Source: Maribacter polysiphoniae | GTDB taxonomy: Bacteria > Bacteroidota > Bacteroidia > Flavobacteriales > Flavobacteriaceae | Direction: 5' to 3' | DNA length: 64,000 nt | Assembly: GCF_003148665.1 (NCBI RefSeq) | Contig: NZ_QGGQ01000004.1 | Span: forward strand, 372,001-436,000 | Part shown: positions 5,163 to 62,485 of the stretch, piece after piece | Numbering within the stretch: position 1 is the first letter of the stretch | How the letters are laid out: each line of letters begins with the position of its first letter | Notes under the pieces: generated by a model | The model's database searches: none | The model's input: only the letters and a program-made list of their open reading frames with translations | Told to the model about the DNA's origin: nothing | Made by a program: the position numbers and the translations under genes

Positions 5163-7367
5163 CTATTCCTTGACCGGAGCACTGATTGCTTCGGCATAGC
5201 GACCTGCCCAATAGGGCAACAGGTAAATGTAAGGTGCATATTCCTGCCTGGCATTCCCCCCATTATTCTTATATGCCCCATTATGCTTGTGTAGTACACG
5301 CTCATCACCAGGTAACACTTCAGAATACGTTTGGCTTCTAAAGTTAGGCTCGATCATAATCAAGTCCTTACGATGGCTATTGTCAATTTTCCAGTCGATC
5401 AAATCCATTGGGAACTCCCGTAAATTCCATGCAGACTCCTCGCTATCAATAGTTGTACTACCAGTTAACGCAAAAAGATAATTCCACAATGGATTTTTCT
5501 CTGAACGCTCAACTTCCCAATGACTCTTAACCGTTTCAAAATGCTTTTTCCGTTGTTCTTCTGTAAATGAATAATTCACAAAGCCCGGTATGGTTAAAAA
5601 ATACATCTCATCATCAGAATGATTCCAACGATCACTTAAATCCTCACCTTCAACATAACCAATTGTGGTAGCAGGGCGATTTGCATTTTCATCATAACCA
5701 TATCTCTTGATTAATTTTAGGGCCGCCTTCTTGTATTTTTCGTCTTTCGTAAAATGATATGTCGTTTGCAAGAAGGACAGTATAAGGGTAGAATTCAATC
5801 TTCTATCGCCCACATTTATCGGAAAACTATTTACGTATTTGGGGTTCCATTTGCCCCAGGCCGTAGGTTCACCATTCCAATCGACCAAATACCAATTATT
5901 ATCCATAATATGGTCCATTTGAATCTTAAGTTGGTGTATTGCGCGATCTCTCCATTCTTGATCGGGAGCCAACTCCGCAAAAAGTGCATGGACATAGAAA
6001 TGCCCACAGGTTTCATCACTACTTGTCGTAGATTTCCATCGCCATTTTCCATCAGGGGTCAATCGCCAAATCCTACCGTTTTCGGCTACATGTTTTTTAT
6101 ACCATTCCTCTGAGAATCCGTTAGCATGCAATCCTACTTCGTAACCATCCCGTTCAAATGATCTTGCCGGAAAACCATGCATGGGGGTAATTGCCGTCAG
6201 CCTTTCCATAGCTTCAAAGGCCTCATATGCATTTTGCTTTGCATCCTCATCCTTTGTAACCGCATAGCGATATAACTCCCCCGCCAAATACATCGAGGTC
6301 CATAAGCCATCATTATCGGTATCATGGTAATACCCTGACGTAAGATCGCCTGGAGTCTTCAACTCAAGATTAACGGTTAAACCATATCGAATATGACGCA
6401 AACGTTGGATTTTTTGGAAATAATCCGCTTTTTCAGCGAGGGTCATCGACACAAAATTTATTTGTGATAAGCCCGTTTTTGTAGCGATCAACACGCTATT
6501 CTCCGGCCCTTTTGCTATATCAATCACCACATCATCAACTAGCCAACGTTTTGATGCATAATAGTCATACTTGCCATCTTCACGTAATTTGAATGCTCCT
6601 TTTGTAGACCCAAACCACAGTTGTTCATTAATGTTGGTGATGCTTGTGATTTCCGTCCATGGTAATTTTTGATTGATTTCACCCGCCTTCAAAGGATTGC
6701 CAGACAAGGTAATGACACCATTACCCGTACCTAACACAATACCATTTTCAGAAAGTGCAAACGCAGTAAGATTTGAACCTGAATAAATCTTCTTTAGTTC
6801 CGGTTTTTCGGGTACAATTTCATATAGGGCATTTGCTGTCAACATTAAAAAACGATTCCCCCGTTTATCATATTTTAACGAGATAGGATGCAATTCGTTT
6901 TCTTTGGTTTCCCAAATTACCTTCCCTTCCTTACCTATCAATTTTAGTGCATTTATTGAAGCGACCAAAGCCTTGAAATCCGAACCAATGGCAAAATGGG
7001 AAGCTGTTGTCAAACCATGTTCTACTTCATACGTACCGCCCCAAGCATTACTCAAAACAGAGGTATCCGTTAAATACACAAATTGATCTTGATAATTATC
7101 AAAGGCAATAATATTCATATCCGTCAAGGGTCTGTATTGCAGATCCAAAGACAATTCATTCCCAAATGCATTTAAGAGTCCATCAGCAGAAAGCACTTTA
7201 ATCGCCAAATTTCGATCGCTTTCCACTTGCCATAAGGCAGTACCCCCAATAGTTTCCTGTAGTTCATATTTCACAGCATAATCTTGAAGATAGGGTGTAT
7301 CTGTATACTGCTGCGCATTTACAACAATTGAAAAAATAAGACCCACAACAACTATTAGTTTTCTCAT
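5163..7367 (-). CDS. P1: secreted beta-propeller plus helical-toroid protein, putative glycan-active enzyme of unknown family
   Basis: 734 aa with a signal peptidase I leader ending near residue 19 (VNAQQ). Residues about 20-310 form a beta-propeller with two-component-regulator-type blades (LWFGSTKGAFKLREDGKYDY at 250-269). Residues about 315-730 are mostly alpha-helical, with motifs shared with three paralogues in this window: DNDG (351-354), GFPAR (398-402), W.WKSTTSSDE..GH (442-456), VDWNG..TAWGKW (495-507), NHSDDEMYF (about 585) and LLPYWAGRY near the C-terminus. The pattern resembles an (alpha/alpha)6 hydrolase or lyase, and the invariant Asp/Glu residues would be the catalytic candidates. 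There is no transmembrane or histidine kinase domain, so this is not a sensor kinase. It leads a unit with the GDPD gene. Its upstream region carries both recurrent cis elements. Function unknown. Confidence 0.8.
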   Translation of the reverse strand: MRKLIVVVGLIFSIVVNAQQYTDTPYLQDYAVKYELQETIGGTALWQVESDRNLAIKVLSADGLLNAFGNELSLDLQYRPLTDMNIIAFDNYQDQFVYLTDTSVLSNAWGGTYEVEHGLTTASHFAIGSDFKALVASINALKLIGKEGKVIWETKENELHPISLKYDKRGNRFLMLTANALYEIVPEKPELKKIYSGSNLTAFALSENGIVLGTGNGVITLSGNPLKAGEINQKLPWTEITSITNINEQLWFGSTKGAFKLREDGKYDYYASKRWLVDDVVIDIAKGPENSVLIATKTGLSQINFVSMTLAEKADYFQKIQRLRHIRYGLTVNLELKTPGDLTSGYYHDTDNDGLWTSMYLAGELYRYAVTKDEDAKQNAYEAFEAMERLTAITPMHGFPARSFERDGYEVGLHANGFSEEWYKKHVAENGRIWRLTPDGKWRWKSTTSSDETCGHFYVHALFAELAPDQEWRDRAIHQLKIQMDHIMDNNWYLVDWNGEPTAWGKWNPKYVNSFPINVGDRRLNSTLILSFLQTTYHFTKDEKYKKAALKLIKRYGYDENANRPATTIGYVEGEDLSDRWNHSDDEMYFLTIPGFVNYSFTEEQRKKHFETVKSHWEVERSEKNPLWNYLFALTGSTTIDSEESAWNLREFPMDLIDWKIDNSHRKDLIMIEPNFRSQTYSEVLPGDERVLHKHNGAYKNNGGNARQEYAPYIYLLPYWAGRYAEAISAPVKE

Positions 7368-9741: not shown

Positions 9742-11988
9742 TTATTGTATCACCTCAAGATAACGCCCCATCCAATACGGTAAAAGCCAATATACAGGTT
9801 CTAGTTCCTGAGAGGGGTCCCCACTTGTCGCTAAATAAGGATTGCGATCCCAACGAACAGTCCGGTATTCACTCGGTGGACGTAAGGCCACTTGTAATTC
9901 TTCCAAAATCGGTGCTCGTACCGTTTTGAGGTCTTCGCGTTTAGAGTTGTCTATATGCCAATCGACAAGATCTAAAGGTGCATCTTTCAAAAAACCGATG
10001 GAATTTTCCAGTTCCTCTGTATTGTCGGCCAATAGGTTGTAGGTAAAATTCAGAAATGGACTTTTGGCTTTCCTATGCTTTTGGAACCATTGTTCCATAT
10101 GGTCTCGATATTCCTTGCCAAGCTTTGGATCCTCTTCATAATCGATCAAGATCGGATACATATACAAGGCCAAATAAATATCAAAATAAGTCTCCCAAGC
10201 TGGATTGGTGTTGTGCAACATTTTGGCATTTTTTAGATAGCCTTGATCTTCAATCAGCTTCAAATATTCGCTTTGGTACTTTTCATTTTGGGTTATATGG
10301 TAGGTGAATTTAAGGAATGCGAGTAATTCCAACGAATTCAATGCCCTTTCCGGCGCCCATTCGGGATCATGGTTCAACAACTTGGGAGACCAAACACCCC
10401 ATTTTGTGCGCTGTCCATCAACATCTACCAGGTTAAAATCGTTTCGTATCAGGTGATCCATGATCTTACTGAAATGTTCGGCCACCCGTTTCTTTTCCTT
10501 CTCATCGGCCACCAGATTATAGTACCAATAGTATCCGAACAAATGACCACAAAGTTCATCACTGCTGGTGTCTCCCTTCCATTTCCATTTTCCATCCTTG
10601 GACACATGCCATCGCTCTTCCACCGGTTTATGCCTTGGGTTATCAATAAGGGCTTCGGCCATTTCCCGATCGGTGTAGGTGCGGTTCATGTCATGTGATC
10701 GCTCCCATGAAACGGGGATTATGGTTCTGGCAAAAAAACCATCAACTTCGGTAACCGTTCTCAAATAATGCAAAAAATCAAATGCCTTTTTGGCCCGGGT
10801 CTTGGCCTCAGGGTCTTTAGTGACAGCATATCGAAAAGCTTCCATCGCCAGATAATTAGAGGTAAACTCACCATCATTATCATCATCATCAGGTTCGATC
10901 GACGCCGTATCACCAGGAATCGTCAATTTGGACCTCGCAATGATCCAGGGTTCCCGAACATGACGCTGAATTAATTTATCATAGAAAAAATCTGATTTTT
11001 CCTTTAAGGTCATTTTCTTGTTCTTTATGGCACTCACCCCATTGGAAGTTGCGATCCAAGCGTTTCCATCTTTATCAAAAGTGATATCCCTCACTTCATT
11101 CGAACGTAGCCAACGCTTGCTCAAACGTACCGAATACGTATCTTTCGCCGGTTCAAACCTGGTAATCCCATAATCGGTACCCACCCACATTGTACCGTTT
11201 GGCGCTTTTTTAACCACATTGACGTGGGCATTGGCAATGCCATTTTCCGGCCTTTTATCGCTTATTCTTCGTTCCCCGTTCCTAATCGTGACACCCCCCA
11301 TACAAGCAACCCATAGATTACCTTTCGCATCAAAATCCATTCCCGTGACATAGGCACTGATCAGATCGTCATTACCCTGAAACACCTCGGTTTTTTCATC
11401 CGTACAATGATAGAGTCCCACATCGGTCCCTATCCAAAGTCCCCCATTGTTATCTGATAAGGCAGCCCGAATACTTCTGGCTATCCCAAAGTCCTTTTTA
11501 ACCCAATCAGTAGTATCAAAATACCATGAGCCATAAGGCCCCAAGGCATAAATCCCCTCATTTGCCACAACTAATTTAGCTATCGGTGGTTGAGGCCCCT
11601 CTATCTTTTGAAGTCCGGTGGTATCACCCATATAGACCCCATCCCAGGTAGCCAGCCATACTTTATGATCTAGTCCGATGGCAACATCATAAGCCGGACC
11701 TTTTGTCTCCCCTTGGATACCAAGCACCCAATCTTTGGAGCTTTCCTGTTTAAAATAGACCCCATCTTTTGTGGCAATCCAAATAGTGCCATCACCATCG
11801 GTTTCAATCGCCCTTACATCCTGTGCCTCTGCATTTCCGCCGGCAACCTCATATCCCTCATGATATTCTTGAACAAACGGAGTATCCTCATAAAACAATT
11901 TATCCCCGGTCTGGGTTACTTGTGTTTTATAATCATCATTCTTACACGATATAAAAACGAGGATTAAAAATAAAATCGATTTTCCCAT
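9742..11988 (-). CDS. P2: lipoprotein with regulator-type propeller and helical-toroid domain
   Basis: 748 aa with a short lipoprotein signal (VFISC, Cys15). Residues about 50-325 have at least five clear two-component-regulator propeller blades (IWIATKDGVYF, VWLATWDGVYM, LWIGTDVGLYH, LWVACMGGVTI, MWVGTDYGITRF, AWIATSNGVSAI). The helical domain (about 330-748) shares the family motifs DNDG (370-373), GFFAR (417-421), WKWKGDTSSDE..GH (468-482), VDVDG..TKWGVW (521-533), DNSKRED and LLPYWMGRYL. It groups with P4 rather than P1 or P3: it has the IIPVSWE insertion after GFFAR and lacks NHSDDEMYF. No membrane anchor beyond the lipid, and no kinase. Role unknown; probably surface-exposed. Confidence 0.8.
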   Translation of the reverse strand: MGKSILFLILVFISCKNDDYKTQVTQTGDKLFYEDTPFVQEYHEGYEVAGGNAEAQDVRAIETDGDGTIWIATKDGVYFKQESSKDWVLGIQGETKGPAYDVAIGLDHKVWLATWDGVYMGDTTGLQKIEGPQPPIAKLVVANEGIYALGPYGSWYFDTTDWVKKDFGIARSIRAALSDNNGGLWIGTDVGLYHCTDEKTEVFQGNDDLISAYVTGMDFDAKGNLWVACMGGVTIRNGERRISDKRPENGIANAHVNVVKKAPNGTMWVGTDYGITRFEPAKDTYSVRLSKRWLRSNEVRDITFDKDGNAWIATSNGVSAIKNKKMTLKEKSDFFYDKLIQRHVREPWIIARSKLTIPGDTASIEPDDDDNDGEFTSNYLAMEAFRYAVTKDPEAKTRAKKAFDFLHYLRTVTEVDGFFARTIIPVSWERSHDMNRTYTDREMAEALIDNPRHKPVEERWHVSKDGKWKWKGDTSSDELCGHLFGYYWYYNLVADEKEKKRVAEHFSKIMDHLIRNDFNLVDVDGQRTKWGVWSPKLLNHDPEWAPERALNSLELLAFLKFTYHITQNEKYQSEYLKLIEDQGYLKNAKMLHNTNPAWETYFDIYLALYMYPILIDYEEDPKLGKEYRDHMEQWFQKHRKAKSPFLNFTYNLLADNTEELENSIGFLKDAPLDLVDWHIDNSKREDLKTVRAPILEELQVALRPPSEYRTVRWDRNPYLATSGDPSQELEPVYWLLPYWMGRYLEVIQ

Positions 11989-18762: not shown

Positions 18763-18814
18763 TTCAACTCCCAAATTATTCAATCCCAAGGCAACATAGC
18801 TTCAGAACGGTTTT

Positions 18815-33824: not shown

Positions 33825-34844
33825 ATGAAAAATTACAAGCACTTAACAACCATTCTCTATTTTTTGATTCTATTCTCAGGATGCAAGGAGAAAAAGACCC
33901 CTACCACTACTCCCGAAACCACGATGGCAAACTCCGAAATCAATAAAAACCCCAGTACCTGGGCGGAGAAATTGGGTTGGCCAGCGGATAAAAAAGTCAT
34001 TTTACTACACGCCGATGATATCGGCATGTGCCCCGAAGCCAATATTGCCGCAAAGAAGCAATTGACTGACGGGGTCATACAATCCGCTGCGGTAATGATT
34101 CCATGCCCCAACGCCCAGGAATTCATATCATGGGCCAAGGAAAACCAAAAATTGGACATAGGCCTTCACCTTACCTTGACCAGCGAATGGAAAACGTATC
34201 GCTGGGGCACTGTATCGGATAAATCCGAAGTACCGGGACTATTGGACGAGGAACATAAAATGTGGCATGAGGTACCCCAAGTAGTGCAACATGCCAGTGC
34301 GACAGAAATTGAAAAGGAAATAAGGGCGCAAATAGAACAATCCTTGGCCTGGGGTTATCGGCCAGACCATATCGACACCCACATGGGCACCTTATTTGGA
34401 CATCCCTCCTACGTAAAAGTCTATATGAAGGTCGCACAGGAATATGGCATACCTGCCAATATAATAGACATATCCAATCCAAAAGTACTGGCAGAGTTCA
34501 GAAGTCAAGGTTACCCCATGGATGATAGTGTGGTTAGGATGACCGAAGCGTATAGCCTACCTAAACTCGATTATTTCACCAGTGTTCCCAAGGCCAAAAC
34601 CTATCCCGAAAAAATCGCCAACTTTAAAAAGCTTATTGGCTCCTTGGATTCCGGACTTACCGAAATCATTTTCCATCCATCGGTGCTTACCGAAAACTTA
34701 AAGGGTATTACGAACTCTTGGCAACAACGCTCTTGGGAGGCACAAATGTTTTCCGACCCGGAACTCATCCAATTTTTCAAGGATGAAGGGATAATATTTA
34801 CCAATTGGAGGGAAATCATGGAGCGTTTTCAAAAACAGAAATAA
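33825..34844 (+). CDS. ChbG/YdjC-type carbohydrate deacetylase-like lipoprotein
   Basis: 339 aa with lipobox LFSGC (Cys20), so it is exported, unlike cytoplasmic E. coli ChbG. The YdjC fold (PF04794) is shown by LLHADDIGMC (Asp64-Asp65 general base and metal ligand), HLTLTSEW with a metal His, HIDTHMGTLFGHP (second His pair) and EIIFHPS near the C-terminus. ChbG removes one N-acetyl group from chito-oligosaccharides. Here the substrate could be any N-acetylated or O-acetylated oligosaccharide of the locus. It is fourth in the rightward operon, with a 147-bp gap after it. Confidence 0.87.
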   Translation: MKNYKHLTTILYFLILFSGCKEKKTPTTTPETTMANSEINKNPSTWAEKLGWPADKKVILLHADDIGMCPEANIAAKKQLTDGVIQSAAVMIPCPNAQEFISWAKENQKLDIGLHLTLTSEWKTYRWGTVSDKSEVPGLLDEEHKMWHEVPQVVQHASATEIEKEIRAQIEQSLAWGYRPDHIDTHMGTLFGHPSYVKVYMKVAQEYGIPANIIDISNPKVLAEFRSQGYPMDDSVVRMTEAYSLPKLDYFTSVPKAKTYPEKIANFKKLIGSLDSGLTEIIFHPSVLTENLKGITNSWQQRSWEAQMFSDPELIQFFKDEGIIFTNWREIMERFQKQK

Positions 34845-34991
34845 TTCAACTATCCTAACACCCAATACCATTAAAACCGAAAAAACATTCAGCTATAGAC
34901 AATATTTAATGTGTTTCGAATAATATTCAAGTAGCCTTGTGTTTAGATTAAGGTGTTATTTGTAATATATAAAATTTCAAATCCAAAAGGT

Positions 34992-36074
34992 ATGAGACAA
35001 TTTACTTTTTTCGCCCTGGTATTAATGATTTTCTCTTGTAAGGAAAAGTCTCCCCAATTACCCAAGGTCGTTCCCTTAAACCACCCAGCCGTGATCACCG
35101 AAGAATTCATTTATGAGATAGACAAGGCACCCACACCCGAGTGTCATGCCTCAACGGTAGCCGTAAGTAATGGGGTGATCGTCGCATCCTGGTTTGGTGG
35201 CACCAAGGAAAAAAACAAGGATGTAGGCATCTGGGTCGCTCGTAGAACGAACGGAAAATGGTCTTCCCCTATTGAAATCATCAATGGGGTACAGGAAGAT
35301 GGCACCCGCTACCCGTGTTGGAATCCTGTTTTATTCAAACCTAAGGGAAAGCCGCTCTATTTGTTTTATAAGGTAGGCCCCAGTCCACAAGAATGGTGGG
35401 GACTTTATATGACCTCTAAAGACAATGGCCAAACATGGTCAGAACCGACAGAACTTCCTAAAGGCATTTTAGGCCCCATAAAAAACCAACCGATTCAACT
35501 GGCCGATGGAACCATTTTGTCCCCATCGAGCAACGAAACCACTTCCGGGGATTGGACCGTTCATTTAGAGTATAGTATGGATAGTGCAAACACATGGACC
35601 AAATCGAAACCTTTGAACCTACCAGAGGAATTTGGGGCCATACAACCTGTGATATTGAATTACGGAAACGGAAAGTTACAAGTATTGAGCCGTACCAAAA
35701 ATGGTGTTGTAAGTGAAAACTGGTCCGATGACCATGGAAAAACCTGGAGCGCCATGACGGCTACTTCGTTACCGAACCCAAATTCAGGAATCGATGGGAC
35801 CAGCCTTCTAGATGGACGACAATTTCTGGTGTATAACCCTACCGATAAAAATTGGGGTGACCGGGTACCTTTGAGTATTGGACTTTCAAAGGATGGCAAA
35901 AACTGGGACCGGGTGCTCGACTTGGAACCCTTACGCGAGAATACGGATAAGGAAGGAGAGGAATATTCCTATCCCACCGCTTTACAAGCTGAGGACGGAA
36001 AAATACATATCGTCTATACGTGGAACAGGAAAACGGTCAAATATGTGGTCATTGACCCCGTAAAACTTCAATAA
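34992..36074 (+). CDS. Sialidase-like BNR-repeat propeller lipoprotein
   Basis: 360 aa from ATG 34992, giving lipobox IFSC (Cys16). A six-bladed propeller of the BNR_2 type (PF13088) with two clear Asp-boxes (TSKDNGQTW and SDDHGKTW) and the motif CHASTVAVSNGVIVASWFGG near the N-terminus. Annotated relatives include exo-alpha-sialidases, but the same fold holds alpha-L-rhamnosidases (GH145) and other glycosidases. The sialidase FRIP-type Arg is not visible, so I do not call it GH33. It abuts the next ceramidase-like gene exactly (TAA then ATG). Confidence 0.82.
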   Translation: MRQFTFFALVLMIFSCKEKSPQLPKVVPLNHPAVITEEFIYEIDKAPTPECHASTVAVSNGVIVASWFGGTKEKNKDVGIWVARRTNGKWSSPIEIINGVQEDGTRYPCWNPVLFKPKGKPLYLFYKVGPSPQEWWGLYMTSKDNGQTWSEPTELPKGILGPIKNQPIQLADGTILSPSSNETTSGDWTVHLEYSMDSANTWTKSKPLNLPEEFGAIQPVILNYGNGKLQVLSRTKNGVVSENWSDDHGKTWSAMTATSLPNPNSGIDGTSLLDGRQFLVYNPTDKNWGDRVPLSIGLSKDGKNWDRVLDLEPLRENTDKEGEEYSYPTALQAEDGKIHIVYTWNRKTVKYVVIDPVKLQ

Positions 36075-43044: not shown

Positions 43045-44178
43045 TTATTTAATCGTCCTTCTTTCCACCTTAATGGTATCAAACTCGTTGCCTTCAATAT
43101 CGAACACATGCAATACGGCTTCATCCTGTTCAACTTCAACATTGATAAAGTGCTCTATTTTTTTATAATTAAGGGTTTCCGGCTGTACGGCATCAATATC
43201 ATATAATGGCGCCCCTGCCCCTGCTGATGTGATAAAATGAACCCCCTTGTCATATGCATGGTGGTAATGATGGTCATGGCCATTTAAAAATACCTGTACG
43301 CCATATCGACTAAAAATATCGCCCCAAAAAGCACGGACCTTCTTTGACTCTTCCACACGACTTTTTTTCACACTGTATAAAGGGGTGTGCTGAAAAATAA
43401 AAACGAATCCTGCCTCACGGTTCAATTCCAAGACCTGTTCCAACCATTCCTTTTGTTTCTTTAGATATTCAATGCCCGATTCTTCCCAATAGGTATCTTC
43501 CATGCCCTCGGATGTGAAAGCGGGTATCGTTGTCCTTAAACCTTCACTATCCAATACAACGAACAACGCATCACCCACGGTAAAATAGTAGTAGCGTTCA
43601 TTGTAGGGAAGGTCAAAAAAATCGTAATAATAGGGTGAATCCTTTTCATGATTGCCCAATACCGGATAGTAGGGCGTATTGGTCATAAAATCCTTATTGA
43701 TCTTAAAAAAAGACTCCCAATCGCGCATTGAAAGTCCGTTGGCAACCAAATCCCCTGAATTCACAATAAACCTTGGATTTAGTTGCCCTACCTGTTCGAT
43801 TATTCTCTTATGGACATTGTTTCTACTGCGTGTATCCCCTATTGCTACAAAATTAAAAGGTATGCTTTTATCCGGATACGTCCGCAACTTACCTTTTCCC
43901 TCATCGCTACCGTCATTCAAAACATCATAAACATATTCAGTGTCCGGTTCTAAATTGGCCAAATGTATTTTATGTTGTTTAAATTCCCGGATTGTGTCTT
44001 TTTCCCCCGCTATATCCGTAATGGTCATCTCACCCTCAAGGGTCGACCAACATATGGTCGCATCTTTTGTACTCATTTGTTGGATATAAGGTCCGAAGGC
44101 AATCTTATCACTGGTTTGCCCTGCAAGCTGTAGGATGGTAAAGAATAAAAAAAGTGTAATTGGAATCGTATTTTTCAT
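43045..44178 (-). CDS. Secreted purple acid phosphatase-like metallophosphoesterase (PAP3)
   Basis: 377 aa from ATG 44178, which starts a signal peptide (ends about residue 21, LAGQ). The frame is open 17 codons further upstream without signal features. A short Fn3-like domain (about 22-95) leads into the catalytic part: AIGDTRSR, NSGDLVANG, GNHEKDS, FQHTPLYS and NGHDHHYHH. These give the full set of dimetal ligands. First gene of the leftward PAP3-PAP2-aldolase-HAD operon, preceded by TATATTTG at 44266-44273. Probably periplasmic. Its closeness to PAP2 suggests sequential action on the same phosphorylated substrate. Confidence 0.87.
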   Translation of the reverse strand: MKNTIPITLFLFFTILQLAGQTSDKIAFGPYIQQMSTKDATICWSTLEGEMTITDIAGEKDTIREFKQHKIHLANLEPDTEYVYDVLNDGSDEGKGKLRTYPDKSIPFNFVAIGDTRSRNNVHKRIIEQVGQLNPRFIVNSGDLVANGLSMRDWESFFKINKDFMTNTPYYPVLGNHEKDSPYYYDFFDLPYNERYYYFTVGDALFVVLDSEGLRTTIPAFTSEGMEDTYWEESGIEYLKKQKEWLEQVLELNREAGFVFIFQHTPLYSVKKSRVEESKKVRAFWGDIFSRYGVQVFLNGHDHHYHHAYDKGVHFITSAGAGAPLYDIDAVQPETLNYKKIEHFINVEVEQDEAVLHVFDIEGNEFDTIKVERRTIK

Positions 44179-44510
44179 GGTATCGGTTATAAGAAGTTTA
44201 TTTCTGTTTATGAAATGAAGTTTACACAATAGCTTAAATCGATTGAACCTTCCTTAGTCATGTAACAAATATATTCAACCCAAACAAAGACGTATTAGTT
44301 TATCTTATTTGAAACCTATGTTATTTTAACCATTCACTCTTTTCAATTGCTCTATTTTTGTTTATGAAGTTAAAATTCCAACACATTGAATAACCAGAAT
44401 TATAGATTCAGTGAAGGATCTATTTCGATACACTGGATTAATTCATATTGAAGTACCCGTATTCTGAGTTGAAATCCATATCTTCTTGACATCTTTTATC
44501 AATTGATTTT
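44179..44510. promoter_or_regulatory. Divergent control region between PAP3 operon and cytochrome/VCBS gene
   Basis: These 332 bp contain no gene. The minus strand carries the -7 element TATATTTG (44273 to 44266) for PAP3, 88 bp from its start. The plus strand carries the palindrome ATGTTATTTTAAC (44318-44330) followed by TATTTTTG (44353-44360) for the cytochrome gene. The palindrome could serve both promoters. Confidence 0.55.
44318..44360 (+). promoter_or_regulatory. Promoter with GTTA-TTT-TAAC palindrome, before the cytochrome c/VCBS gene
   Basis: ATGTTATTTTAAC at 44318-44330 starts exactly 35 bp before the -7 element TATTTTTG (44353-44360). There is no TTTG at the -33 position, where the palindrome sits slightly upstream. 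With a start point 5-7 bp past the -7 element, the palindrome is centred near -41, the usual place for an activator that contacts RNA polymerase. The same 13-mer with the same 35-bp offset occurs before the GH92 gene. Confidence 0.55.
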
Positions 44511-50568: not shown

Positions 50569-51543
50569 TTATCCTTGCCCGACCTCGATTCCTGTGTTTG
50601 CTGTTTTCAGGCGTTCATTTTCCCATCCATGGTCGACATATTCCCATGTGAAGTCATCACCTTGCACTTTGATCTTCATAAAACCTTCTTTGGTGTTGTG
50701 TCTTCGACCTTTCCATCCGTTTCCTGCAATAGAGCCACCGGTTAAAAAATGGAATCGGTCATTTACAAATCCATATTCCTTCCAATGGATATGTCCCTGC
50801 AACACCAATTTTAAATTGTAACCTTCCAACATCCTAAACACTTCAAAGCCGTTGCTCACCGTACGGCTTCCCTCACTCCCATTTAACTGGGAATAGGCAC
50901 ATATCATAGGAATATGGGTCGTTATTACAATGGGTGTTGCCTTATCGACCTTGTTTAGGTCTTCGGCCAACCACTGCAATTGCTCTTTATGAAAAACACC
51001 TTTGTACCGCTTGCTTTCCGTTACATCCAACGAATTCAAAGTGATAAAATGCCAACCCTTATGATCAAATGAATAATAGGTGTCCCCGAAATGTCTTTCC
51101 CACATGCCATACTTATAATCAGGATGGTCCGGACCTTCGGGACTTTCCTCATAAATCCCGAATAAATCATGGTTTCCGATACAATTATAAACCGGCATTT
51201 CAAACCCCTTGCTCATATCCTTATACAAGCTAAACAGCGATTCACTCTTTTCAAAATTACCGCGCATGACATCATAAACAAGGTCACCTCCAGTGATAAC
51301 AAAATCAGGATTCAACCCATTCACCTTATCGATGGCCATCTGAAAACCTTTTGGGGCATTCATTTCCGGCTTGATATGGATATCGGTCAAAAAAGCGAAT
51401 TCAAAGGAATCACCCGCATCCGTTTTTGTCCCCAAAGTGCCTTGTCGGCATGAGTTTGATAGAAAAGGAACTGCCGCCGCTGCCAATCCCGTGCGGAACA
51501 AGAAAGATCTTCTTCCCAAACCATCTTTATTACGATCTTTCAT
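50569..51543 (-). CDS. Tat-signal metallophosphoesterase (Calcineurin-like)
   Basis: 324 aa. The N-terminus has a twin-arginine motif (GRRSFLFRTG, 10-19) and a lipobox-like SNSC (Cys32), so it is a Tat-exported lipoprotein. Dimetal ligands in order: FLTDIHIKP (Asp, His), TGGDLVYD, IGNHDLFG, ITTHIPM and LQGHIHWKEYG. It hydrolyses phosphomonoesters or diesters, possibly cyclic nucleotides or sugar phosphates, in the periplasm. It follows the D-2-hydroxyacid dehydrogenase gene by 57 bp. It is distinct from the three PAP-type genes because the Fn3 domain is absent. Confidence 0.88.
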   Translation of the reverse strand: MKDRNKDGLGRRSFLFRTGLAAAAVPFLSNSCRQGTLGTKTDAGDSFEFAFLTDIHIKPEMNAPKGFQMAIDKVNGLNPDFVITGGDLVYDVMRGNFEKSESLFSLYKDMSKGFEMPVYNCIGNHDLFGIYEESPEGPDHPDYKYGMWERHFGDTYYSFDHKGWHFITLNSLDVTESKRYKGVFHKEQLQWLAEDLNKVDKATPIVITTHIPMICAYSQLNGSEGSRTVSNGFEVFRMLEGYNLKLVLQGHIHWKEYGFVNDRFHFLTGGSIAGNGWKGRRHNTKEGFMKIKVQGDDFTWEYVDHGWENERLKTANTGIEVGQG

Positions 51544-52797: not shown

Positions 52798-55170
52798 ATG
52801 AAAAATTTACTGAACCTGATATATCCACTTACGTTTTCAATGTTCTTTGCATGTACCCAGATCGGTTATACACAGGCCAAGACGCCCAGTGCGTATGTGG
52901 ACCCCTTTATTGGTACCGACTTTTTTGGGCACACCTATCCCGGTGCAGCATTACCCAATGCACTTGTGCATTTAAGTCCGGATGTATATACAGAGGGCTG
53001 GACCTACTGTGCGGGTTATATCTATTCTGAAAGTTCAATCATGGGTTTCAGCCACACCCACTGGAGTGGTGTTGGCATGGTCAATGGTGGCGAGATATTA
53101 CTGATGCCCACGGTGAACCAAAAACTACAGATCGTACCGGGTTCCTTGGAAGATCCCGATGCAGGGTATCGCTCACGATTCGACCACTCCGAAGAGCGTG
53201 CCACACCGGGCTATTACACGGTAAAACTAAAGGATTATGATGTTAACGTTGAACTAACGGCTACCCAACGGGCTGGTTTTCATCGTTATACATTCCCAGA
53301 ATCAACGAATTCGCGCATTATTTTGGATGTTGGCCATCAAATCGGGGATATGACCAAAGGCGAACTATCCGAACTCAAGATTGTCGATGACCACCGTATT
53401 GAAGGTGCGAAAGGTGCAGGGCTAGGAAAAGTGTATTTTGTAGCGGAGTTCAGCAAACCCTTTTTATATTATGGCACTTTTGACGCCACGTATAAGACCC
53501 CTGAATCCAATGGCAGTATTTTCCCATACAAAAACGCCGAGGTAGGTGATAAAATAGGGGCATTTGTACAATACCATACTGCAAAAGACGAACAGGTTTT
53601 AGTAAAAGTAGGCCTATCCTACACCAGTATTGAGGGTGCGCGAAGAAACCTCCAGCAGGAAATACCTAACTGGGATTTTGATGGTGTAAGGGATAACGCA
53701 AAAAAAATATGGGACAAGGAGCTTTCAAAAATCACCGTTAAAGGAGGCTCTGAAGACCAAAAACAGATTTTCACCACCGCACTCTACCGATCTCTGTTAG
53801 CGCAATATATTTCACAGGATGTCGATGGTAAATATTTTGGTTCGGATGGAAAAATACACGAAGCCAAGGACTTCGATTTTTATGGGTCTTTTTCATGTTG
53901 GGACACTTACCGAACCCAGCATCCCTTACTAACCCTTGTGGCTCCTGAACACGTAAACGACTATATCAAATCGATAGCGGCAAAGGTTGAAAATTATGGA
54001 TGGCTACCAGCCCAACACTTTTTAAACGTCTATGGGGAGTCCATGGTCGGCGATCACCTGATCCCGATTATTGTGGACGCCTATTTAAAAGGGTATCGCG
54101 ATTTCGATATCAACCTATTGTACAAGGCGATGAGAAAAAAAGCTTTGGAACTACCCAAATCCCCCATTTCGAAGGATGTGGGGCGCTCGGGGTTGACTTA
54201 TTATCTTGAAAAAGGATATGCCCCCATCGATAAGGTGACCGAGGCAGTACCCAATACCCTTGAATTGGCCTATGATGACTGGTGTATTGCCCAATTGGCC
54301 AAAGCGCTTAACAAACCAAATGACTATGCCCTATTCATGAAACGGGCCAACAATTACAAGAATGTCTGGGATTCCAAAACCCAATTCATGCGCCCCAAAA
54401 AATATGATGGCACTTGGCTCCCTGAAATCGGGGACAACAAGCAGGAAATCATCAAGAATGGTGACCACAGTTATTACAAATACTTTGACCCCTTATTGGT
54501 TGGTCGACGTCCAAATCGCCACTATACCGAATCGAATGCCTGGCAATATATATGGTCTGTACAACATGACCCGCAAGGACTCATATCCCTTTTCGGGAAC
54601 AAAAAAGAATTTATCGCCAAGCTCGATACCTTTTTTGAGATGAGTCCGGTTATTAGTCCACCAAAGTATGTAGGTGTGGTCGGCACCATAGGGCAATATG
54701 TCCATGGCAACCAACCTTCGCATCATGTTGCCTATTTATACAATTATGCCGGCCAGCCATGGAAAACACAATTCAGGGCCCGCCAAGTAATGGATAAAAT
54801 GTACCGAATAGGTCCTGGCGGCCTTCCGGGAAATGAGGATATGGGTTCACTTTCATCCTGGTATGTGTTAAGTGCCATGGGTATTTACCCTATGGCCCCA
54901 GGAAATACTGTTTATACGATTGGCAGTCCGCTTTTTGATGAATTGAGTCTACACCCCACAAAAAACAAAACATTTACGGTACGCGCCCAAAACAATTCCA
55001 AGAAGAACGTATACATCCAATCCGCAACCTTCAACGGTAAACCTTTCAACAGAACATGGATTACCCATGAGGAAATTGTCAAAGGAGGTGTTCTTCAATT
55101 TAAGATGGGACCACAGCCAAACACGAAATGGGGCACGGACAAAATACCTACATCCTTATTACCCAACTAG
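52798..55170 (+). CDS. GH92 exo-alpha-mannosidase
   Basis: 790 aa with a signal peptide (about residues 1-26, TQA). GH92 hallmarks: YVDPFIGTDFFGHTYPGA (34-51), GFSHTHWSGVG (about 83-93), GSFSCWDTYRTQHPLL (about 366-381), ESNAWQYIW, HGNQPSHHVAYLYNYAG and GNEDMGSLSSWYVLSAMGIYPM. Members are calcium-dependent inverting exo-alpha-1,2/1,3/1,4/1,6-mannosidases, some acting on mannose-1-phosphate-6-mannose. Length fits the family. It implies mannose in the substrate. It is followed 200 bp later by P3 and P4, and its promoter shares the 13-mer palindrome. Confidence 0.95.
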   Translation: MKNLLNLIYPLTFSMFFACTQIGYTQAKTPSAYVDPFIGTDFFGHTYPGAALPNALVHLSPDVYTEGWTYCAGYIYSESSIMGFSHTHWSGVGMVNGGEILLMPTVNQKLQIVPGSLEDPDAGYRSRFDHSEERATPGYYTVKLKDYDVNVELTATQRAGFHRYTFPESTNSRIILDVGHQIGDMTKGELSELKIVDDHRIEGAKGAGLGKVYFVAEFSKPFLYYGTFDATYKTPESNGSIFPYKNAEVGDKIGAFVQYHTAKDEQVLVKVGLSYTSIEGARRNLQQEIPNWDFDGVRDNAKKIWDKELSKITVKGGSEDQKQIFTTALYRSLLAQYISQDVDGKYFGSDGKIHEAKDFDFYGSFSCWDTYRTQHPLLTLVAPEHVNDYIKSIAAKVENYGWLPAQHFLNVYGESMVGDHLIPIIVDAYLKGYRDFDINLLYKAMRKKALELPKSPISKDVGRSGLTYYLEKGYAPIDKVTEAVPNTLELAYDDWCIAQLAKALNKPNDYALFMKRANNYKNVWDSKTQFMRPKKYDGTWLPEIGDNKQEIIKNGDHSYYKYFDPLLVGRRPNRHYTESNAWQYIWSVQHDPQGLISLFGNKKEFIAKLDTFFEMSPVISPPKYVGVVGTIGQYVHGNQPSHHVAYLYNYAGQPWKTQFRARQVMDKMYRIGPGGLPGNEDMGSLSSWYVLSAMGIYPMAPGNTVYTIGSPLFDELSLHPTKNKTFTVRAQNNSKKNVYIQSATFNGKPFNRTWITHEEIVKGGVLQFKMGPQPNTKWGTDKIPTSLLPN

Positions 55171-55245: not shown

Positions 55246-55370
55246 CCTTGTAGAATATAGGTGGTAATGTACTTATAAAATCGGTTTATTTGTTTTGAAT
55301 GTTATGCAGTGTTTTGCTTAACCGTATATCAACATCATTAACAATTAACCATCCTAACCTCATAGATATT

Positions 55371-57608
55371 ATGAAAAAGATCAATCAATACTGCATTTTG
55401 ATGATTTCACTTCTCGTGGTTTCCTGTAACAACCCTGATAAGGAAAAAGAACAAACATCCTCAATGCCTATATATGAAGACATCCCTTACCTTCAAGATT
55501 ATAGCATAAAATACAATTGGACCCAAGATCAGGATATATCCAAGGTATATATGGATAGGAATGGCGTAATCCAAGTGCTTTCTACAGACGGCCTTCTACG
55601 AACACATGATGGACAATTTTTATATCCCGGCACGCTGCTGAAAGACAAGACATATCGCCCACTTACCGATAAGCAAATAAGTGGACTTACCCTGTATGAA
55701 AACCAATTTGTCTATTTAGATGATAAGGCGGTTTTCAGCAATGCATGGGCAGGTAGTCTTTACCTTTCCCACAATCTACCCAAGGCCCATATTTTGGCTG
55801 CGGGATCCAATTTCGATTTTCTGATCAGTGATGGTAAGTCCCTTCAATTTCTATCAAAGGATAAGGCCCCTTGGGAAGGAGCAATCGATGACCGACTTTT
55901 GGACATACGGTACCATGCCGACCAAAAAACATTCTGGATTTTAGGAGCGCACAGTATTTCTAGTTTTGATGCGACCACCAGTACTTTAAAAACAACACAA
56001 CAAGAACAACAATTGACGGCATTGGCCCTACAGGGTGATCATTTGGTCATAGGCACTTCAAATGGTTATTTTGAACTCAATCCCAAAACGGTAACGAAGG
56101 TTGGCCCGCTGCAAAACAAACTACCGGTTACCGATATTACTTATATCGAAACCATCGACGATCATCTCTGGTTTGGATCTTCCGAAGGCGCCTTCAAATT
56201 ACGTGATGATGGTAAATTCGATTACTACTACGGAAAGCGTTGGTTGCCCAACAACCATGTAAAACATATATCCAAAGGAAATGATAACTCCATCTTGATT
56301 TTGACCGATACCGGTCTGGGCCAAATCGTATTCGAAGAAATGACCCTTTTTGACAAGGCCGAATATTATGAAAAACAAGTAAGGGACCGTCATATCCGTT
56401 TAGGCTTCAATGCCTCTTTGGTCGATATGGACAATGGAAATATTGATACCGGACGACTTTCGGATTCCGATAACGATGGCTTATGGACAACCATGTATCT
56501 GGCAGGGGAGGTTTTTCGCTATGCGGTGACCCAATCTGATGATGCCTTACAGAATTGTAGGGAATCCATGGAGGCTATGGAGCGGTTATTCAGTATCAAT
56601 CCAGTTCCTGGGTTTCCCTCACGATCCTTTGAGCGCAGTGGTTATATTGAAAAATTGCACGACCCGGACAGATGGCAACACTCCAACGACCCGGAGTGGG
56701 ATTGGAAATCGACCACCAGTAGCGATGAGGCTATCGGGCATATATTTGCTTACGGTGTCATGGCTGAATTGATGGACAATGACCTGAAAGACCGAGCCAT
56801 AACCCTTATCGATACCTTGATGAGCCATATCGTCCGCAATGACTTGTACATGGTTGATTATGATGGAAAACCCACTACTTGGGGCAAATGGAACCCCGAT
56901 TATGTGAATGCCAGACCGAAAATGGTGGGCGATCGAAAAATAAACTCTTCCAATATTATTGGTATGTTACAGACTGCCTATCATTTCACTGGAAAGGAAA
57001 AATATAAAGAAAAAGCCTTCGACCTGATGAATAACCATGGCTATCTCGAAAACCTTATGTGGCCGATGAAGGATGTAGCCCCCGCCCCTGACGATGCGGA
57101 CGACTGGAGTAAGATGCTATCGGAATCATGGAACCATTCCGATGATGAAATGTATTTTGTGGGGTACTGGGGATTATACAATTATGCTTTCAACGACACG
57201 CTTAAAACAAAATTCAAAGCATCCATTCTTGACCATTGGGAAATTGAACGACCTGAAAAAGAAGGCGCATGGAACATTATGACGGCATTGACCGGTACTT
57301 CCGAATTTGACCTTGACGAAGCCGTATGGTATCTCAAAGAGCATCCTATGGATATGGTTTCATGGGATGTCAAAAATAGCCATAGAAAGGATTTGGATTT
57401 TATAGCCCCCAATTTTAGGGAGCAGACCACGAAAGAGGTACTTCCCCCTGATGAAAGAAAGATACAACGCCATAATGGTAATATGTTTCGATTGGATAAA
57501 ATCGGAAATGACGGTGGTGAAGAATATTCGGCTGGGGATATTTGGCTCCTCCCCTATTGGATGGGCCGATATTTGGGCGTGATCAGTGAACCCCAACCTT
57601 TGGATTAA
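55371..57608 (+). CDS. P3: lipoprotein with beta-propeller and helical-toroid domain
   Basis: 745 aa from ATG 55371, which gives a lipoprotein signal (LVVSC, Cys19). Residues about 35-325 form a propeller aligning well with P1 (YRPLTDKQISG; HLWFGSSEGAFKLRDDGKFDYY). The helical part has DNDG (367-370), GFPSRSFERSGY (414-425), WDWKSTTSSDE..GH (444-457), VDYDG..TTWGKWNP (495-509), NHSDDEMYF, NSHRKDL and LLPYWMGRYL. It is the closest local relative of P1 (subtype A). It may be co-transcribed with P4, 45 bp downstream. Catalytic activity is suspected but not shown by any family I recognise. Confidence 0.8.
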   Translation: MKKINQYCILMISLLVVSCNNPDKEKEQTSSMPIYEDIPYLQDYSIKYNWTQDQDISKVYMDRNGVIQVLSTDGLLRTHDGQFLYPGTLLKDKTYRPLTDKQISGLTLYENQFVYLDDKAVFSNAWAGSLYLSHNLPKAHILAAGSNFDFLISDGKSLQFLSKDKAPWEGAIDDRLLDIRYHADQKTFWILGAHSISSFDATTSTLKTTQQEQQLTALALQGDHLVIGTSNGYFELNPKTVTKVGPLQNKLPVTDITYIETIDDHLWFGSSEGAFKLRDDGKFDYYYGKRWLPNNHVKHISKGNDNSILILTDTGLGQIVFEEMTLFDKAEYYEKQVRDRHIRLGFNASLVDMDNGNIDTGRLSDSDNDGLWTTMYLAGEVFRYAVTQSDDALQNCRESMEAMERLFSINPVPGFPSRSFERSGYIEKLHDPDRWQHSNDPEWDWKSTTSSDEAIGHIFAYGVMAELMDNDLKDRAITLIDTLMSHIVRNDLYMVDYDGKPTTWGKWNPDYVNARPKMVGDRKINSSNIIGMLQTAYHFTGKEKYKEKAFDLMNNHGYLENLMWPMKDVAPAPDDADDWSKMLSESWNHSDDEMYFVGYWGLYNYAFNDTLKTKFKASILDHWEIERPEKEGAWNIMTALTGTSEFDLDEAVWYLKEHPMDMVSWDVKNSHRKDLDFIAPNFREQTTKEVLPPDERKIQRHNGNMFRLDKIGNDGGEEYSAGDIWLLPYWMGRYLGVISEPQPLD

Positions 57609-57653
57609 CAGTCCAAGGCCACTTTTAAAACAAACCATTCAATACGATATCCT

Positions 57654-59783
57654 ATGCGAACCATTTTACTGATTTCAATAGCATTACTGCAATTCTCTTT
57701 TATATCAATTGGGGAGAAAGATAAATTCCGACAGGATGTTGCCGTAATGCATGGTAGCGAACAGGGGCTCCCCCAAGGAGCCTTTACTGAAATACAGTTA
57801 TACAACAATATACCCATTGCGATAGCTTCCGGGGGAACCTACGAATGGAACGGTAGCCAATGGACAAGGATAGAGGGTTCCAAACCGGAACATTCATTAT
57901 CACAATTCAAAAAATTACCAGAAGGTACAGGAAAAGTACTCTCCGAAGTAACCTATAAAGGCGAGACCTATCTGGGTTGTGAAAACGGTCTATACGTTAA
58001 GGCCAAAAAAGGCAAATGGAAGCAGGTATTACCCTTTGACGAAAATTATAGCTGGGCCTTGAAAAAAGTCGCCGCCCTGGTTGTAGATACGAACGGCAAT
58101 CTATGGTTTGGGTCCAAGGAAGGGATTGGTAAAAACACCAATGGGAAATGGCAATTGTTTACGGGAAAGGAAGGCGTTCCCTATACCCAATTCACTTGTG
58201 CTTCGGCAGGACCCCAGGGCGAAGTATGGTTCGGCACGGAAAATGGCGCCATAAGGGCCGAAAACGACTATTTTTACTATCGTACCACACGACGTTGGCT
58301 ACCTGACAATCATGTAAACGACATTGCCGTAGACCAAGAAGGCACCGCTTGGTTTGCAACGGACAAAGGCATTGGTCAAATTATTCCCAAAGAGATGACC
58401 TATGAGGAAAAGGCAGCCTATTTCACCCATCTAACGGAAGAAAGACATAACAGAATGGGGTTCATTTGCCAAAACCACCTCAGCAAGCAATTCGATATAG
58501 ACAGCTATGAACTGGCCATCTCTGACAACGATGGCCAATATACCGCCATGTACGGTGCCGCACAGGCTTTTAGATATGCCATAACGGGTGATAAGGAAGC
58601 AAAGGCAATTGCGGATAGAAGCTTTAAGGCAGTAAAGTGGCTGGTCGATATTACACCTGAGCCAGGTTTTCCCGCCCGTGTTATCATTCCCGTTGATTGG
58701 CACGAAACGGTAAACGAACAATACAGTAAGGAGTACAACAAAAGGCATCAGAAAAACGACCCCTTCTGGAAGGATATCTATCCCCGTTTTCCGCTAAGTC
58801 AGGATGGCAAATACCGTTGGAAATGTGATACCAGTTCTGACGAGTTGGCGGGACATTACTTCTATTATGGAATCTACTACGACCTTGTCGCTGAAACCGA
58901 AGAAGAGAAAGCAGCGGTTAAACAAGTAGTGGCCGATGTTACCGACCATCTTATCCGCCATAGTTTCAAATTGGTCGACTACGATGGTAAACCCACACGT
59001 TGGGGCAGTTTTGACCCTGACTACTTTAACTCGATTTGGGGTTGGGATCAGCGCGGCCTAAATTCGATGATGATGCTCTCCTTTCTTAATGTAGCCAGCC
59101 ATGTTACCGAAGACCCAAAATATGACGAGGTGTCCAAAATGCTGCGTGACGAAGAAAATTACCACATTAATGCCATGCATCCCAAGGAATTTTTTCCTCC
59201 TGAAAACGTAGTCCCATGGGACAACAACCTTGGGTTAATGAGTTTTTACGGTCTGATCAACTATGAAAAAGACCCCGAACTCCTTATGATGTATCGTCTT
59301 TCCTTGGAATATGCCTGGTTAAATATCAGCAAACAAAAGAATGCCTTTTGGGATGGACTTTACGGAGCATTGGCAAATACTTTTACCAAAAAAGTAAACG
59401 AAGGTTATTTCAATACACGTGAATTGTTCAAGGAGAATCCCTTGTTTGCCCAATCGGTCATTGACCGCTATGGGAAAAGCAGTCTTGACACCCGATATAT
59501 CAAGGAAACCCTACAACGTATTCCCTTAGACCTCATCGGTTATGAAATGGACAACACCCATCGTCTTGATGTACTTTTCGACCCCACCCCAGCCCAGGAA
59601 GCTGATATGGGATGGCGCATGGACTCCTATGCGCTCCCTATTGACGAACGCGGGCATGTTCGGTTGGACAGGGATGCTTTTGACCTTCACGATTCAGAAG
59701 GAAATGGTTATTCAGAACACGAAGGCACTTTCTATCTTTTACCCTATTACTTCGCGAAGTACCATGATTTAATTCCCCAGTAA
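57654..59783 (+). CDS. P4: secreted beta-propeller plus helical-toroid protein
   Basis: 709 aa with a signal peptide (about 1-20). The propeller part is short (about 25-250), with fewer blades (LWFGSKEGIGK, VWFGTENGAIRA, AWFATDKGIGQI). The helical domain carries DNDG (291-294), GFPARVIIPVDWHE (338-351), YRWKCDTSSDE..GH, VDYDG..TRWGSFDP, DNTHRLDV and a variant C-terminus LLPYYFAKYH. It shares the IIPV(S/D)W insertion with P2 (subtype B) and lacks NHSDDEMYF. So the tandem P3-P4 holds one of each subtype, as does the distant P1/P2 pair. Function unknown. Confidence 0.8.
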   Translation: MRTILLISIALLQFSFISIGEKDKFRQDVAVMHGSEQGLPQGAFTEIQLYNNIPIAIASGGTYEWNGSQWTRIEGSKPEHSLSQFKKLPEGTGKVLSEVTYKGETYLGCENGLYVKAKKGKWKQVLPFDENYSWALKKVAALVVDTNGNLWFGSKEGIGKNTNGKWQLFTGKEGVPYTQFTCASAGPQGEVWFGTENGAIRAENDYFYYRTTRRWLPDNHVNDIAVDQEGTAWFATDKGIGQIIPKEMTYEEKAAYFTHLTEERHNRMGFICQNHLSKQFDIDSYELAISDNDGQYTAMYGAAQAFRYAITGDKEAKAIADRSFKAVKWLVDITPEPGFPARVIIPVDWHETVNEQYSKEYNKRHQKNDPFWKDIYPRFPLSQDGKYRWKCDTSSDELAGHYFYYGIYYDLVAETEEEKAAVKQVVADVTDHLIRHSFKLVDYDGKPTRWGSFDPDYFNSIWGWDQRGLNSMMMLSFLNVASHVTEDPKYDEVSKMLRDEENYHINAMHPKEFFPPENVVPWDNNLGLMSFYGLINYEKDPELLMMYRLSLEYAWLNISKQKNAFWDGLYGALANTFTKKVNEGYFNTRELFKENPLFAQSVIDRYGKSSLDTRYIKETLQRIPLDLIGYEMDNTHRLDVLFDPTPAQEADMGWRMDSYALPIDERGHVRLDRDAFDLHDSEGNGYSEHEGTFYLLPYYFAKYHDLIPQ

Positions 59784-61105: not shown

Positions 61106-62485
61106 TTAATGGGTAAGGGCATCATGCAGTTCTAAAATGAATATCTGTTTATACAGATTGCTTTGAGCATCGTCTATAATTCGTGAACTGGTTGCATTGG
61201 GCATGTCAACATTATAGGCCAGTATTTTTCCATCAGGGGACACAACCAAAGCTTCCCGGTCCAAATCACTGGGAGTCAATACAATTGATTTTCCGAAGCC
61301 GTCCGGTCCACCAACAAAACTGGCATAAACTTTTCCATCACTAATGGAAAACAACCATTGATCGGAGGGATGCCAACGGACATAACCGGCATCTGCCGTA
61401 TAATTTGTGACCTGCATCGGTCTGCTTTTCGGATCTACCGCCAAATCGGAACCGCCAACCGGAATTACAAACACTTGTAATATGCCCTTTTCGTCCTTTG
61501 ATAAATAAGCGATCTGTTCCCCCGAGTATGATCCCCGCACAATACCCTCATCAGTGGTACTATGGGTCAATCTTTTTATTTTGATACCCACGGGAGGTTC
61601 GGGATATGTATTGGCATCACCGGAATACGCCGATGTAATATCGACGGTATTGGGTATTTCAGCGACGAAAAGCGAAGTTTCATAATCAACTCCGTTTTCG
61701 GCACGAACCTTTCCTATAAAGGCACGTTTCGTTCCCAAGGAATCTACCCAAGAGTCGCCGTAGGCCTTTTCAATTTCACCAGGTTTCGATTCGCCCTTTT
61801 TTACGGGTTTCAACATTACCGCAAAATAATGGCTGAATCCTTCCGGAGCACTCTTATTAACTTCCATATAACCGATGGTACGGTCATAGTCCTGTTGCAG
61901 AAAGTCATCATAGGTAAAACCGATACGCCGCCCGTTTCTGGAATATTCATGTCGGTGGGTACCCCCTCGTTGTGCTCCCGGGGTTATTGGCCTATCGGTA
62001 ACCACGTCCCTTAAGTCAGCAATTGAAATTTCTCCCTTTCCATCGGCGCTGACGATGGCCCCATTTCTGTTTCGTATGTCATAATGACCCCTTTCGTCAA
62101 CTTCCTCCAATTGGGGACCGTGAATAAAAACCACCTTGTTTTCTGTAGGATGATACGAAACCGCGGCAACACCAGGAGCACCATGCTCCCCGGAAACGGA
62201 TTCCGGTTGCAATAGTACGGTTTCCTCTCCCGTTGCCAAGGCTACTTTTTCTATGGACTTACTATTGGCCAGGTTGGTATTGAACACCATATAACGCGTA
62301 TCGTAACACAAAAAGCGTCCGTCTGGGGAGAAATTATCATTGTTATCCAGGGCGTGTGTCTTTGCATTGAAGGTAATCTGTTTTTCGGTCATGATGTTGT
62401 TTTTGGAGGCTACTCGTTCCTTACAACCTATCATGAGGGAAAAGACCATAATCAATAAGGAACCTGGGATTTTTAAAGTGCGCAT
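61106..62485 (-). CDS. DUF3748 TolB-like propeller lipoprotein
   Basis: 459 aa with lipobox MIGC (Cys21). TolB/WD40-like propeller repeats (NFSPDGRFLCYDTRYMVFN; VSYHPTENKVVFIHGPQ; VRWHPSDQWLFSISDGKVYAS; VSPDGKILAYNVD), and the DUF3748 core (THRHEYSRNGRRIGFTYDDF). Relatives are annotated as biopolymer transporter TolB-like or as uncharacterised. It sits between the sugar isomerase and the MFS transporter. It may act as a periplasmic sugar-processing or binding protein, but no catalytic residues can be named. Confidence 0.8.
   Translation of the reverse strand: MRTLKIPGSLLIMVFSLMIGCKERVASKNNIMTEKQITFNAKTHALDNNDNFSPDGRFLCYDTRYMVFNTNLANSKSIEKVALATGEETVLLQPESVSGEHGAPGVAAVSYHPTENKVVFIHGPQLEEVDERGHYDIRNRNGAIVSADGKGEISIADLRDVVTDRPITPGAQRGGTHRHEYSRNGRRIGFTYDDFLQQDYDRTIGYMEVNKSAPEGFSHYFAVMLKPVKKGESKPGEIEKAYGDSWVDSLGTKRAFIGKVRAENGVDYETSLFVAEIPNTVDITSAYSGDANTYPEPPVGIKIKRLTHSTTDEGIVRGSYSGEQIAYLSKDEKGILQVFVIPVGGSDLAVDPKSRPMQVTNYTADAGYVRWHPSDQWLFSISDGKVYASFVGGPDGFGKSIVLTPSDLDREALVVSPDGKILAYNVDMPNATSSRIIDDAQSNLYKQIFILELHDALTH

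Follow-up and report, generated by a model that had tools for sequence, protein, structure and literature searches.

What do two adjacent genes encode whose products end in a domain that has no name in Pfam or NCBIfam? P3 and P4 lie in a stretch of 64,000 nucleotides from Maribacter polysiphoniae (hereafter the window). P3 (55371..57608, plus strand) encodes 745 amino acids from an ATG at 55371, its open reading frame (ORF) opening upstream at 55299, and P4 (57654..59783, plus strand) encodes 709 amino acids. The initial annotation of the window had recognised both genes, and they were found intact: the two ORFs are complete and are separated by 45 bases, downstream of a gene for a protein of glycoside hydrolase (GH) family 92. 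In comparison with the nearest relative genome compared (G005), the ratio of nonsynonymous to synonymous substitution rates (dN/dS) is 0.051 for P3 and 0.079 for P4; both genes are under purifying selection. The products are presumably exported, judging from signal peptides recognised by eye; that of P3 finishes with a lipoprotein-like Cys (VVSC), and that of P4 lacks a lipobox. Their aligned sequences are 29% identical (158/537 columns, E 4e-62). The C-terminal domain forms a new branch within a familiar fold, the (α/α)6 toroid, and occurs here in a fusion with a β-propeller for which titles and abstract openings in the openly licensed literature (bioRxiv lying outside the scope) gave no precedent.

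The AlphaFold2 model of whole P3 was built from 112 sequences, with a mean predicted local distance difference test (pLDDT) of 95.8 and a predicted template modelling score (pTM) of 0.91. Residues 40-324 (55488..56342, plus strand) form the β-propeller, which VIA-align matches with Z-scores of 23.5-24.6 over approximately these residues (50 matches listed) and Foldseek matches to 2qc5 (E 1.9e-12). Because propellers filled the fold searches of the whole protein, in which the matches listed were propellers or propeller-bearing chains, the toroid was modelled and searched separately (residues 320-745; 114 sequences, pLDDT 96.4, pTM 0.94). This model contains twelve main helices and is matched by VIA-align to many (α/α)6 enzymes over model residues 3-421. 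The architecture suspected from the letters of the DNA, a propeller joined to an (α/α)6 toroid (residues 326-745; 56346..57605, plus strand), is thus borne out by structure prediction and comparison, and the toroids are acidic as described (isoelectric points of 4.74 and 5.05 for P3 and P4). In P4, the N-terminal part is shorter than in P3 and the toroid spans approximately residues 246-709. The assignment of the propeller to the regulator type holds for P4 by Pfam (Reg_prop repeats, 5.4e-11) and for P3 by the model, although P3 has no Pfam match at E-values up to 10; its search against PDB sequences returned, as a weak match (E 0.024), the propeller sensor 3v9f.

The toroids of P3 and P4 have no match in Pfam or NCBIfam, and a toroid profile of 15 members matches no PDB sequence at E-values up to 10, in agreement, within these libraries, with the proposal of a C-terminal domain outside the known families. 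A Pfam scan of the 15 toroids returned scattered weak signals only. DUF2750, matched by four of the 15 (best E 2.7e-4), was rejected; in the member with a bit score, the match lies below the cut-off.

Most of the 50 VIA-align matches listed for the toroid are sugar-active enzymes. The best is the GH76 structure 4v1r (Z 18.6, root-mean-square deviation 4.2, 307 aligned, 7% identity), and other GH76 structures score similarly (4v1s, Z 18.3; 6u4z, Z 17.7). Below them are cellobiose 2-epimerases (Z 16.6), GH9 (Z 15.7), drimenyl diphosphate synthase (Z 15.2), the GH8 endoglucanase CelA (1is9, Z 15.1), polysaccharide lyase BACCELL_00875 (5no8, Z 14.8), and GH116 (Z 14.8). In Foldseek, GH9, epimerases, and GH76 rank at the top, with GH9 CelD as the best match (E 4.0e-5) and query template modelling (TM) scores of about 0.25-0.49. 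Together, these matches make the fold class secure, though not the nearest family.

The position of GH76 at the top of the VIA-align matches, an Asp-Glu pair as in its member BT2949, and the adjoining GH92 gene would all agree with the toroid being a divergent GH76 α-mannanase that has drifted past profile recognition. This is nevertheless very improbable. PF03663 (GH76) has no match in P3, P4, or the 15 member toroids at E-values up to 10, and the VIA-align Z of 18.6 contrasts with DALI Z-scores of 34-44 within GH76, as given in PMC4321491. In hhalign comparisons with alignments of seven toroid families, namely GH76 (six members, from six of eight loci; L167 and L170 had no fitting ORF), GH9 (12), GH144 (12), GH127 (6), AGE (10), GH88 (12), and GH92 (10), the toroid reaches 14.8% with GH76, a value inside the range between GH76 and the six other families (1.0-92.1%). 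The remaining values are 27.2% over 154 columns for GH127 (PF07944 members), 4.2% for AGE, 0.9% for GH144, 0.7% for GH9, 0.2% for GH88, and 0.1% for GH92; nine further context alignments, used as controls, gave 0.1-0.6%. The 21 pairs among the seven families span 0.1-92.1%, the highest being GH76-GH88 and GH127-GH88, and GH9-GH127 (50.1%) and GH76-GH127 (46.6%) both exceed the toroid-GH127 value. As many of these families are at least as distant from the toroid as from one another by this measure, with the toroid no closer to them than is common among themselves, it is, at the sensitivity of hhalign and on sequence profiles, a separate branch.

The branch is large. A species collection of genomes holds at least 557 related stretches (557 of 593 candidate stretches among the matches listed), and the counts out of 80 given hereafter refer to the best 80 of these loci. 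Record titles of the 80 are all from Bacteroidota, except for L068, titled uncultured Thalassobius, which is probably a binning error. The nearest named match of the P3 toroid among the matches listed is from Maribacter aquimaris (98% identity). With P4 as a query, 33 of 60 genomes (own included) match at E ≤ 0.001, mostly over the propeller only; the toroid is reached in six (G000, G003, G005, G022, G029, and G037; rows read by eye). The toroid profile matches eight of 395 genomes of the phylum (own included). One of these eight, L045, is an L,D-transpeptidase matched at 19.4 bits and was rejected as a family member. None of six viral stretches with a pattern match is a relative, and among 72,556 plasmid records one matches, over just 7% of P4.

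Conservation was analysed over 114 weighted toroid rows (effective number 21), with inner and outer helices assigned by their succession along the model rather than from coordinates. The motifs listed in the initial annotation are present in P3 and P4 alike (DNDG, GFP(S/A)R, WK(S/C).TSSDE..GH, VDYDGKPT.WG, and LLPY), apart from the first W of W.WK, which is Y in P4. Their supposed invariance has to be restricted: only eight columns are strictly invariant across all rows (K329, L406, R418, S450, D452, W504, P509, and D591). D452 and D591 are the only acids kept in 114/114 rows. E453 is Glu in 100 rows, Gln in 11, and Lys in three, while D369 is Asp in 111/111 fused rows and Cys in 3/3 stand-alone rows. 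Four conserved segments, all on the plus strand, stand out: the DSDNDG loop (residues 365-370, 56463..56480) before inner helix 2, SSDEAIGH (residues 450-457, 56718..56741) where inner helix 4 begins, with the candidate carboxylate pair D452/E453, the DYDGKPTTWG loop (residues 496-505, 56856..56885) before inner helix 6, and D591-D592 (57141..57146) where inner helix 8 begins. DxDxDG is a calcium-loop pattern; DSDNDG fits it as well as it would fit a catalytic site, and may bind a metal. Among 56 columns conserved at 85% or more, 20 carry a charged or amide residue (D/E/R/K/H/N/Q), and 17 of these 20 fall in the loops entering inner helices or on the first helix residues (Fisher p 0.003 against other columns with such a consensus). 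By helix order, the conserved acids are gathered at one face of the toroid, as had been supposed.

Our preferred reading, held with roughly even confidence, is that P3 and P4 are glycoside hydrolases with a GH76-like D452/E453 pair. They would be exported carbohydrate-active enzymes of a family that has no Pfam or NCBIfam model, with the C-terminal toroid as the catalytic domain and the loop face ahead of the inner helices as the active site. D452 and E453 would hydrolyze the glycosidic bond in the manner of GH76, helped by D591, R418, W445, and W504. The DSDNDG and DYDG loops might either form the rest of the pocket or bind a metal, and the propeller probably holds the substrate or serves in packing. 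The GH92 mannosidase, the BNR-repeat protein, the YdjC-type deacetylase, and the phosphatases encoded in the window would attack the same glycan. Within GH76, the catalytic pair consists of consecutive acids, D136/D137 in ShGH76 according to PMC9213526; it is Asp-Glu in BT2949 and Asp-Asp in others. In BT2949, which is the toroid's top structural neighbor, Asp143-Glu144 are followed by Asp249 106 residues further on, and the protein is reported as inactive on yeast mannan substrates (PMC4321491). D452, E453, and D591 may occupy places equivalent to these three residues, an analogy of order rather than of superposition. Because of this presumed equivalence, a hydrolase appears likeliest, elimination or epimerization being possible as well.

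Several observations weigh against this reading, and the chemistry of the toroid is better called a strong lead than a finding. The pocket is derived from helix order and conservation instead of being measured on coordinates, and when all 56 conserved columns are considered, 32 lie on the same face, with no enrichment (p 0.32). E453 is replaced in the 14 rows with Gln or Lys. The distance between D452 and D591 (139 residues in P3, 119-148 across the family) exceeds the 106 residues of BT2949, and the gap between the VIA-align and DALI Z-scores counts here as it does against membership in GH76. The fold alone is no proof of sugar chemistry, since terpene cyclases share it (Z 14.6-15.2). The neighborhood counts presented below come without a random-locus baseline, and related genera do not contribute independent flanks.

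The same residues could serve another chemistry. The toroid might be a polysaccharide lyase or an epimerase, acting via β-elimination or epimerization, for which near-invariant Y558, Y729, R418, R672, H341, and N561 would be available; the lyase 5no8 is among the fold matches and the epimerases are placed just below GH76. Weak Pfam signals for GH88 (PF07470, 0.0074) and a C5-epimerase domain (0.028) point in the same direction, although each, like a signal for GH127 (0.03), comes from a single member of the 15 with an E-value above 0.001. PF07221 (AGE) has no match in the 15 toroids at E-values up to 10, and the hhalign values for AGE and GH88 are the low ones given above. As the top-ranked fold matches are hydrolases and the uronate gene UxuA is seen, across the 80 loci, in Dyadobacter alone, a lyase or epimerase is considered unlikely.

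Natural variants bear on whether the toroid is catalytic at all. E453Q is carried by 11 rows, which group as a single clade with a support of 0.998 (L050, L065, L066, L074, L081, L083, L087, L093, L104, L117, and L123). In comparison with the 71 other P3-type rows, seven changes are fixed in it: N368S, G370N, P416F, E453Q, H457Q, M532F, and T638Y. Five of the seven positions are located in the DNDG and GFP.R/TSSDE..GH loops and two on inner helices. These joint changes are what a shared pocket would predict, albeit as one evolutionary event with positions chosen post hoc; the covariation links DNDG and TSSDE only, with VDYDG outside it (D498N in 2/11). All 11 loci contain another family gene or fragment in the same stretch, and the clade possibly comprises repurposed or inactive enzymes. 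The stand-alone members of 409 residues have lost D367, D369, and E453. Alteration of several candidate pocket residues in both groups, together with the occurrence of regulator-type propellers in glycan sensors, could indicate that P3 and P4 are non-catalytic binding proteins or scaffolds with a degenerate toroid. We regard this as distinctly unlikely, given that D452 and D591 are kept in every row and that polar conservation is centred on one face.

The M. polysiphoniae genome encodes five copies of the family within about 63 kb. Two full-length paralogs lie on the minus strand of the window: W1 (5163..7367, 734 aa), which the tree places on the same side as P3, and W2 (9742..11988, 748 aa), placed on that of P4 and with a Reg_prop match. 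The stand-alone copy (L028:7372-8598, 409 aa, about 3.4 kb outside the window) has no propeller and altered acids, and is followed by an apparent second SusD and SusC (by eye). Against G005, W1 has a dN/dS of 0.093 and the stand-alone copy one of 0.06, whereas W2 is saturated. P3 and P4 had been described as standing in tandem, which is correct for their position; they do not represent a recent duplication, because they sit in different deep clades.

The setting is that of glycan degradation, as the initial annotation had held. The GH92 gene (52798..55170, plus strand; PF07971, 1.3e-177) ends 200 bases upstream of P3, and the window also encodes GH31, sulfatase, SusC/SusD-type, and purple-acid-phosphatase-type proteins. 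Pfam further identifies a YdjC-like protein of the deacetylase type (33825..34844, plus strand; homologs in 26/80 loci), a BNR_2 protein (34953..36074, plus strand; homologs of this protein in 10/80), and a DUF3748 protein (61106..62485, minus strand; 26/80). Among protein clusters in the flanks of the 80 loci, BNR_2 is found in 29 (11 organism labels), DUF3748 in 26 (10), YdjC in 26 (8), SusD in 26 (16), purple acid phosphatase in 16 (11), GH67N-like in 14 (13), and GH92 in nine (9); clusters were named from one representative each by Pfam, SusD by eye, and GH92 by its match to the GH92 protein of the window. Direct neighbors on the same strand within 400 bases are BNR_2 for 26 and DUF3748 for 21 of the 99 P3-type ORFs (fragments included), and YdjC for ten and PfkB-HAD for nine of the 22 W2-type ORFs. 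A large part of the window is not common to the loci, as queries with several of its proteins match few of them: GH31 matches 1/80, and the sulfatase, a PHP protein, and one ceramidase-like protein match none.

Matches to neutral ceramidase occur at 30160-31503, 36075-37481, and 37492-39048, around the YdjC and BNR_2 genes, one above and two below the Pfam cut-off. Four calcineurin-type phosphoesterases are encoded at 12170-13573, 40665-42971, 43045-44229, and 50569-51543; the N-terminal domain of purple acid phosphatases is found above the Pfam cut-off in two of them and below it in a third. An ORF of 225 aa at 18112-18789 has no Pfam match at E-values up to 0.01. In L096, a PfkB kinase-HAD phosphatase fusion (L096:3722-5644) is positioned directly upstream of a family gene. 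The PfkB-HAD cluster occurs in 13/80 loci, all from Dyadobacter; it and uronate catabolism (UxuA) were dropped as context arguments for this reason. Sialic acid catabolism, considered from DHDPS, ROK, and BNR genes, was rejected because the NCBIfam matches to NanA and NanK are far below the cut-offs. Breakdown of inositol-phosphoceramide headgroups was likewise rejected: the dehydrogenase encoded at 13658 reaches 116 bits, where the inositol 2-dehydrogenase model has its cut-off at 355, and the literature searched held no relevant report.

The substrate may plausibly contain mannose, phosphate, and N-acetyl groups. A more far-reaching scheme, which we consider speculative and rather doubtful, would make the family a new Bacteroidota-wide catalytic one, in which the propeller feeds the toroid, tandem copies have complementary specificities for a glycan or glycolipid headgroup with mannose, phosphate, and N-acetyl groups, and one clade was repurposed by E453Q/H457Q; for such a substrate, it draws on the phosphodiesterase, purple-acid-phosphatase-type, ceramidase-like, YdjC, and GH92 genes that surround P3 and P4. 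The family often occurs in shared operon-like arrangements, and its toroid has no Pfam or NCBIfam name. If the toroid is an enzyme, as we infer, it could define a new carbohydrate-active family and hint at a glycan with an as yet unmapped route of degradation. The E453Q/H457Q clade and the propeller-free copies constitute ready-made natural probes of the key residues and of the propeller.

Several known systems share features with P3 and P4. The hybrid two-component and one-component sensors BT4663 and BT4673 share the regulator-type propeller, whereas P3 and P4 carry an enzyme-like toroid and have no kinase, regulator, or DNA-binding domain in Pfam at E-values up to 10. AGE-type cellobiose 2-epimerases share the (α/α)6 toroid but differ from P3 and P4, which possess a signal peptide and a propeller. 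GH99 is a family of TIM barrels, not of toroids. GH195, a sulfated α-mannanase that in marine Bacteroidota works alongside GH92 enzymes and sulfatases, is described as a distant relative of GH99 (PMC13063451), and identity of the toroid with GH195 was set aside on this description rather than on a comparison of sequences. The endo-α-1,6-mannanases of GH76 resemble P3 and P4 in the (α/α)6 toroid and in the presence of GH92, which is found in loci of Salegentibacter and here. P3 and P4 are distinguished from them by the N-terminal propeller, other conserved motifs, an identity of 7%, and the missing Pfam match. The D452-E453 pair of P3 may correspond to the Asp-Glu pair of BT2949.

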